A stretch of 64,000 nucleotides of DNA from Limnochordaceae bacterium (GTDB taxonomy: Bacteria > Bacillota > Limnochordia > Limnochordales > DUMU01): assembly GCA_014896305.1 (NCBI GenBank), contig JADBKQ010000001.1, positions 124,001-188,000 on the forward strand, given 5' to 3'. The translations under genes and the position numbers were made by a program. The first letter of the stretch is position 1. Each line of letters opens with the position of its first letter. This document shows, piece after piece, positions 37,380 through 38,513 of the stretch. Under the pieces are notes generated by a model, which did not search any database, had not been told where the DNA came from, and was given only the letters and a program-made list of their open reading frames with translations.

Positions 37380-37625
37380 CTACGAAGCGTTTTGCATGGC
37401 CTTCCAGCATTCGCCGCAGATGTTTTTGTCCTTGAAAACCCGAATGTCATCAGCGCTTCCACAAAAGATGCAGGCGGGTTCGTACTTCTTGAGAACGATC
37501 ATCTCGCCCTCGACGTAAATTTCCAGGGCGTCCTTCTGCCCGATTTGCAGGGTACGACGCAGCTCAATCGGGATGACGACCCGGCCCAGGTCGTCGACCT
37601 TCCGTACGATACCGGTCGATTTCAT
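37380..37625 (-). CDS. abrB: Transition-state regulator AbrB
   Basis: An 81-residue AbrB/SpoVT-family regulator. The swapped-hairpin N-domain 'MKSTGIVRKVDDLGRVVIPI' with 'LRRTLQIGQKDALEIYVEGE' is nearly identical to Bacillus AbrB. The C-terminal half contains a CxxC...CxxC-like arrangement ('ACIFCGSADDIRVF' and 'NICGECWKA'), which may bind zinc and is seen in AbrB from clostridia and deep Bacillota. ATG 37625 has GAGGAGG upstream; the ORF track starts 10 codons earlier. A sigma-A promoter and tandem Spo0A-box-like sites lie directly upstream, suggesting Spo0A repression as in Bacillus. Confidence 0.93.
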   Translation of the reverse strand: MKSTGIVRKVDDLGRVVIPIELRRTLQIGQKDALEIYVEGEMIVLKKYEPACIFCGSADDIRVFKDKNICGECWKAMQNAS

Positions 37626-37637
37626 TGGCACTACCTC

Positions 37638-37654
37638 CTCGACACCGTTCGACA
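37638..37654 (-). promoter_or_regulatory. Tandem Spo0A-box-like sequences in abrB leader
   Basis: On the minus strand TGTCGAA is followed 10 bp later (start to start) by TGTCGAG. The 0A-box core is TGNCGAA. They lie about +10 to +27 from the predicted transcription start, the same place and spacing class as the abrB 0A boxes of Bacillus. Confidence 0.6.
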
Positions 37655-37670
37655 CTGGCGACCCAGGCCA

Positions 37671-37700
37671 AGTATACTAATATTTCCAGTCCCACGTCAA
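37671..37700 (-). promoter_or_regulatory. Sigma-A-type promoter of abrB
   Basis: Minus strand TTGACG (37700-37695), an 18-bp spacer, TATACT (37676-37671). The predicted start is near 37664, about 40 nt before the abrB ATG. Confidence 0.8.
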
Positions 37701-37751: not shown

Positions 37752-38513
37752 ATGAGGCTTACCATTCTAGGTGCGACCAGCCCCGTTCCCGGTCCTGGAG
37801 AGGCAAACCCCGGCTACCTCCTCGAGACGAATGGAGAGCGATGGTTGCTGGACTGTGGGTCCGGCGTCATCTCCCGCCTGCAGCGATACGTTCCCCTGAG
37901 CCAGCTGAATGGTTGTCTTATTACCCACTTCCACCCCGATCACATAGCGGATCTTTGGACGTTGTCGTTTGGCCTTGGACGCCTCTTCCTGGCCGGGCAA
38001 CGAGAGGAGCGGTTCCCCATCTACGTGCCACCTGGATACGCCACAGTCTTTTGGGAGCTTACCGACCGCGTCGGTGGGTTTTCCTCCCTATTTCGTTCGT
38101 TCCTGGATCTTACCGAGTATCGCCCGCACAGCACATGGCTGCTGGGACGAACTGTAGCCGAGTTCTACCCTACAGGACATCCTCTGGCAGCCCACGCCAT
38201 CCGCCTGGAGGGAGATCGGAGTCTGTGCTACTCGGGCGATGCTACGCTGCATGGTGAACTCGTGGCCGCCGCTGCCCATGTCGATCTCCTGCTCTGTGAG
38301 GCCGGCGCCCCCGACGCGGCACAGGCCGAAGAGACACATCATCTGACGGCTACCATGGCGGCACAGGTGGCCGCGGAGGCCGGAGTGGGAGAGTTGGCCC
38401 TCACCCACTTTCTGAGTGGGGAGGATCGACAGGCGAAGGTACACGAGGCGGCCCGCCTTTTCTCTGGTCGCTGCCGTGCAGTGCGGGAAGATGATGTGAT
38501 CGCTCTCGCCTAG
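37752..38513 (+). CDS. MBL-fold metallo-hydrolase (RNase Z-like)
   Basis: A 253-residue metallo-beta-lactamase-fold protein. Metal ligands are 'CLITHFHPDHIADL' (HxHxDH), 'GHPLAAHAIRLEG', 'SLCYSGDATLHGELVAAA' (Asp bridging residue) and 'LALTHFLSGEDRQ'. The arrangement resembles RNase Z-like and arylsulfatase-like members acting on phosphodiesters, but it is not recognisably RNase Z (no exosite). ATG 37752 has AGAAAGGA upstream; the ORF track runs back through abrB. It is divergent from abrB and convergent with the DUF3084 gene. Confidence 0.88.
   Translation: MRLTILGATSPVPGPGEANPGYLLETNGERWLLDCGSGVISRLQRYVPLSQLNGCLITHFHPDHIADLWTLSFGLGRLFLAGQREERFPIYVPPGYATVFWELTDRVGGFSSLFRSFLDLTEYRPHSTWLLGRTVAEFYPTGHPLAAHAIRLEGDRSLCYSGDATLHGELVAAAAHVDLLLCEAGAPDAAQAEETHHLTATMAAQVAAEAGVGELALTHFLSGEDRQAKVHEAARLFSGRCRAVREDDVIALA

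Follow-up and report, generated by a model that had tools for sequence, protein, structure and literature searches.

Tandem Spo0A boxes in the abrB leader of a Limnochordia bacterium and the patchy recurrence of their layout across the Bacillota

The leader of an abrB gene in the window, that is, the whole 64,000-nt stretch of DNA analysed here, carries two 0A boxes in tandem just downstream of a sigma-A-type promoter (Table 1). Judged from its sequence, this site is very probably a Bacillus-type Spo0A operator, which would block RNA polymerase when Spo0A is phosphorylated. Outside Bacillus, a link between Spo0A and abrB had in principle been reported before, in Clostridium (PMC8102284, PMC9871927). 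What this analysis usefully adds is how widely, and how patchily, the tandem-box layout is distributed. Most work on the Spo0A-AbrB switch has concerned Bacillus and a few Clostridium, and a phylum-wide layout, with losses in the presence or absence of Spo0A, makes its age and rewiring testable across families by binding and expression.

Table 1. Elements of the abrB locus in the window and the two Spo0A genes of the same genome.
Feature	Position	Strand	Description
abrB	37383..37625 (ATG 37625-37623; stop 37380-37382)	-	AbrB, 81 aa; swapped-hairpin domain and Cys-rich C-terminus
-35 TTGACG	37695..37700	-	promoter scan; TTGAC conserved phylum-wide
TGGAA in -35/-10 spacer	37684..37688	-	candidate AbrB auto-operator half-site
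-10 TATACT	37671..37676	-	promoter scan; 18-nt spacer from -35
0A box 1 TGTCGAA	37648..37654	-	perfect consensus; begins 16 nt past -10
0A box 2 TGTCGAG	37638..37644	-	6/7 consensus; CGG between boxes
Shine-Dalgarno GGAGG	37634..37638	-	one base common to box 2
Spo0A type A	L001:1471-2358	-	receiver and Spo0A_C; canonical DNA-reading helix
Spo0A type B	L002:877-1866	+	receiver and Spo0A_C; changed helix VEAAIRNAI

The TTGACG-18-TATACT promoter that the initial annotation had placed ahead of abrB was found with all its elements on the minus strand, and a promoter scan recovers the same site. With +1 taken 7 nt after the -10, at the assumed position 37664, the boxes span +11 to +17 and +21 to +27, and the annotated pair (TGTCGAA and TGTCGAG, 10 bp apart, at about +10 to +27) holds in both coordinates and spacing. 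Bases G2, C4 and G5 are intact in the two boxes; in TGTCGAA these are the bases that Spo0A contacts, and the C. difficile protein binds PabrB of B. subtilis through them (PMC3485338). Box 2 does overlap the ribosome site, as was also annotated, but only slightly, because the last G of box 2 is the first G of GGAGG and only this base is common to both, or three bases if the Shine-Dalgarno sequence is read as GAGGAGG. This overlap is a short trait of the window's family and not of the ancestral layout. A search of the abrB leader for RNA structure or a riboswitch gave a fold z of 0.18 and no Rfam match, and this candidate was dropped.

The product of the gene begins MKSTGIVRKV..., a start that is kept as [MVL]KSTG, and most relatives are 50-81% identical to it. 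NCBIfam and Pfam profiles assign the AbrB/MazE swapped-hairpin fold to the protein, and its score with the SpoVT model lies far under the SpoVT cut-off. Longer AbrB paralogues elsewhere in the same genome, open frames of 198 and 234 aa, look like the SpoVT type.

As in B. subtilis abrB, a sigma-A-type promoter is followed just downstream by tandem same-strand 0A boxes 10 bp apart, and the gene product is AbrB; rsmI and tatD-like genes lie nearby, as in B. subtilis. Unlike in B. subtilis, box 2 of the window touches the Shine-Dalgarno sequence, AbrB has a Cys-rich C-terminus and the genome encodes two Spo0A paralogues. The boxes are also nearer to the start codon, at -29, than in Bacilli, where leaders with boxes mostly have them at -43 to -78. 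By analogy, during growth RNA polymerase would transcribe abrB from the sigma-A-type promoter. A phosphorylated Spo0A dimer would then sit head-to-tail on both boxes, on one helix face and about one turn apart, and stop the polymerase as it initiates or shortly afterwards; the AbrB level would drop and AbrB-repressed genes would be freed. The window site has every sequence element required for such Bacillus-like action, and the action itself, with binding, phosphorylation dependence, repression and a downstream AbrB regulon in this organism, is what we infer.

In B. subtilis, Spo0A at abrB represses without preventing polymerase binding, an action described as a roadblock from downstream boxes (PMC12090719, citing Greene and Spiegelman 1996), and deletion of the box leaves abrB derepressed (PMC9160880). 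In Clostridium, too, 0A boxes have been reported ahead of abrB, as have mutations that hit them (PMC8102284, PMC9871927): point changes in this box recur in degenerate C. beijerinckii strains that no longer make solvents or spores. These papers give TGTCGAA upstream of the abrB homologues CAC0310 of C. acetobutylicum and Cbei_4885 of C. beijerinckii, like in the window. However, the passages concerned discuss a single 0A box, whereas the window, from another class, has a perfect and a 6/7 box in tandem.

The initial annotation had named a motif search of orthologous abrB leaders as a check, with non-conservation speaking against its reading. We took as leaders the DNA directly upstream of AbrB starts located by tblastn, sampled 108 of them from genomes across the phylum that have Spo0A, in most cases a single genome per family, and scored both boxes together out of 14, with a threshold of at least 11/14 at 10-bp spacing. 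Tandem boxes were found in 70 of the 108 leaders, with 52 scoring at least 12 and 30 at least 13, where dinucleotide shuffling gives expectations of 0.22, 0.02 and 0 for the three thresholds. Real flanking segments reach 11 in 56/13817 cases (0.4%) and 13 in 1/13817. The reverse-complement motif, used as a control in the phylum leaders, gave 0 at spacing 10, and other spacings from 7 to 30 gave at most 5 leaders at threshold 12 and 1 at threshold 13. Box 1 most often starts 15-16 nt downstream of the -10 (28 leaders; 16 nt in the window). In the phylum consensus box 1 hardly departs from TGTCGAA and box 2 reads TGTNGAA, the window having C at position 4 in both. Among Bacilli leaders, 34/49 score at least 11/14, with TGTCGAAtaaTGACGAA as an example of the same layout. 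This also provides a rule of position by which this Spo0A target could be recognised in uncultured spore-formers, with boxes lying about 15 nt past the -10, often just before the Shine-Dalgarno sequence.

Within the class Limnochordia, the threshold of 11/14 is reached by 11 of the 27 relatives, all with their boxes between -28 and -37 relative to the start codon; these are members of families f1 (the window's own), f3, f6 and f9. Boxes are thus kept in 4/11 class families and in 2/4 of the window's own order. The other seven (f2, f4, f5, f7, f10, f12 and f13) have an abrB leader without tandem boxes, none convincing being found within 200 nt, yet all have Spo0A_C genes. Five class genomes have boxes of 14/14 and two of 13/14; perfect 14/14 boxes are present in the Limnochorda-like relatives, and Limnochorda pilosa has been described as a spore-former (PMC7924749). 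The recurrence of the layout in Bacilli, Clostridia-like families and Limnochordia therefore fits an ancient Spo0A-AbrB link, as the annotation had proposed, but its distribution is patchy in the window's own class and order. Most likely, the tandem-box layout is older than the divergence of Bacilli, Clostridia and Limnochordia, and several Limnochordia families have since lost it.

Could the tandem be a product of chance in a GC-rich leader? Single TGTCGAR heptamers do occur at chance level in the window (14 found, 14.2 expected). At up to one mismatch, the tandem has one match in the window against 0.2 expected, and this match is perfect; the perfect TGTCGA-N4-TGTCGA pattern has one copy on both strands of the 2.56-Mb genome (58 contigs, 92% complete), which is the abrB leader. 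This sole perfect match lies where Bacillus abrB would predict it, in the expected orientation and spacing, and the arrangement recurs across families, so that chance is already refuted by conservation and its probability is close to nil. When up to two mismatches are allowed, the genome shows no excess of tandems (130, with 175 for a reversed control pattern). Hence a large Spo0A regulon signalled by an excess of near-tandems was rejected, and the weight rests only on the perfect site in its position. The boxes could also be vestigial, with Spo0A control of abrB decaying and box 2 kept mainly as a Shine-Dalgarno sequence. The boxes of the nearest relatives are indeed slightly degraded (TGTCGAC/TGTCGAG in G002, TGTCGAC/CGTCGAG in G001), two sister families lack boxes, and box 2 ends in G within the family, as a pull towards GAGGAGG would predict. 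However, both TGTCGA contact cores are intact in the window's genome, and within the family the stretch from the -10 to the boxes is unalignable while TGTCGA-M-CGG-YGTCGAG is retained, so that the intervening CGG is conserved although the upstream linker diverged. We consider decay unlikely.

The identity of the protein that would read the boxes was weighed in the same way. Both Spo0A proteins of the window's genome exceed the TIGR02875 cut-off (219.6 against 200 for type A). Directly before type A lies a spoIVB-like gene (251.7 bits, under the model cut-off of 305, E 1e-74), a neighbour that type A shares with Bacillus spo0A. The type A recognition helix, RVERSMRHAIEMAWTRGN, is conserved with respect to RVERAIRHAIEVAWSRGN in the 1LQ1 chain; the acidic pocket of type A, as judged by eye, lacks one Asp (ADP for DDN) but still has the Asp that is phosphorylated as well as the Thr and Lys. 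In a short tree of low resolution, in which three rows are badly extracted, type B falls into a cluster of its own that spans the class. A reading in which type B or another response regulator, and not the spoIVB-linked Spo0A, binds the boxes would draw on the better receiver match of type B and on the presence of two Spo0A_C proteins in nearly every class genome searched. Against it, VEAAIRNAI replaces VERAIRHAI in the type B recognition helix, while the type A helix matches that in the solved structure of the Spo0A DNA-binding domain. We hold this assignment to be slightly less probable even than decay of the boxes; type A is the likely reader of the abrB boxes. As a side observation, families f2, f4 and f5, which lost the boxes and kept Spo0A, have Met, Val or Tyr in place of the conserved Trp after the helix. 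A tie between box loss and change of this residue (the W of HAIExAW) was tried and rejected: the box-less f10, f12 and f13 keep W, and the link therefore allows no firm conclusion.

The presence of boxes was also compared with that of Spo0A, using 13 sampled genomes with abrB and no Spo0A_C match. Among those at least 95% complete, the tandem is present in 0/7, against 70/108 of the leaders from genomes with Spo0A (Fisher p = 0.001), kinship being handled in these counts only by taking mostly different families. Over all 13, boxes are present in 5/13 and the association is weaker (p = 0.08): boxes remain in five of the six genomes under 95% completeness, and as these five are 61-93% complete, their spo0A genes could have been missed or recently lost. 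Two contrasts within families show a score of 13 with Spo0A and 9 without (f52), and of 11 with and 8 without (f23).

A second conserved element lies in the core promoter itself. Across the phylum, abrB promoters have the consensus TTGACTTTTA-N-TGGAA-N4-TGGTAT-N-AT. About 40% of leaders contain a pair of TGGNA at spacing 4-5, and other spacings are hardly ever seen; such pairs were counted in 42/98 abrB promoters, and TTGAC-N5-7-TGGNA in 75/98, both against 0/54 background promoter-like sites. For B. subtilis AbrB, the reported consensus is a bipartite TGGNA 4-5 bp apart (PMC8552724), and B. subtilis abrB is autorepressed (PMC4366234). TGGNA-N4/5-TGGNA within abrB promoters is thus a candidate AbrB auto-operator, proposed from motif content. 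Its second half could partly be just an extended -10 (TGNTATNAT); the first TGGAA is unexplained by sigma-A. In the window, TGGAA is followed by AGTATACT, and therefore only the first half of the element is kept.

On the opposite strand, TCGACA-18-TATACT (37649-37678, +) resembles a divergent promoter facing a metallo-beta-lactamase-fold gene at 37752-38513. It would share the abrB -10 within AGTATACT, which is perfectly palindromic, and its -35 would lie on 0A box 1. Its spacing is lost in G001, as judged by eye; it is therefore probably due to chance and was set aside.

The two modules of the abrB promoter can be found apart: sister family f2 kept TGGAA and lost the boxes, and class family f9 kept the boxes and lost TGGAA. 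We give an even chance to a Bacillota ancestor whose abrB core promoter had both an AbrB auto-operator, in the -35/-10 spacer and extended -10, and, at about +10, a tandem of Spo0A boxes. The full double-negative sporulation switch would in that case be older than the divergence of Bacilli, Clostridia and Limnochordia, and its modules would have been lost independently.
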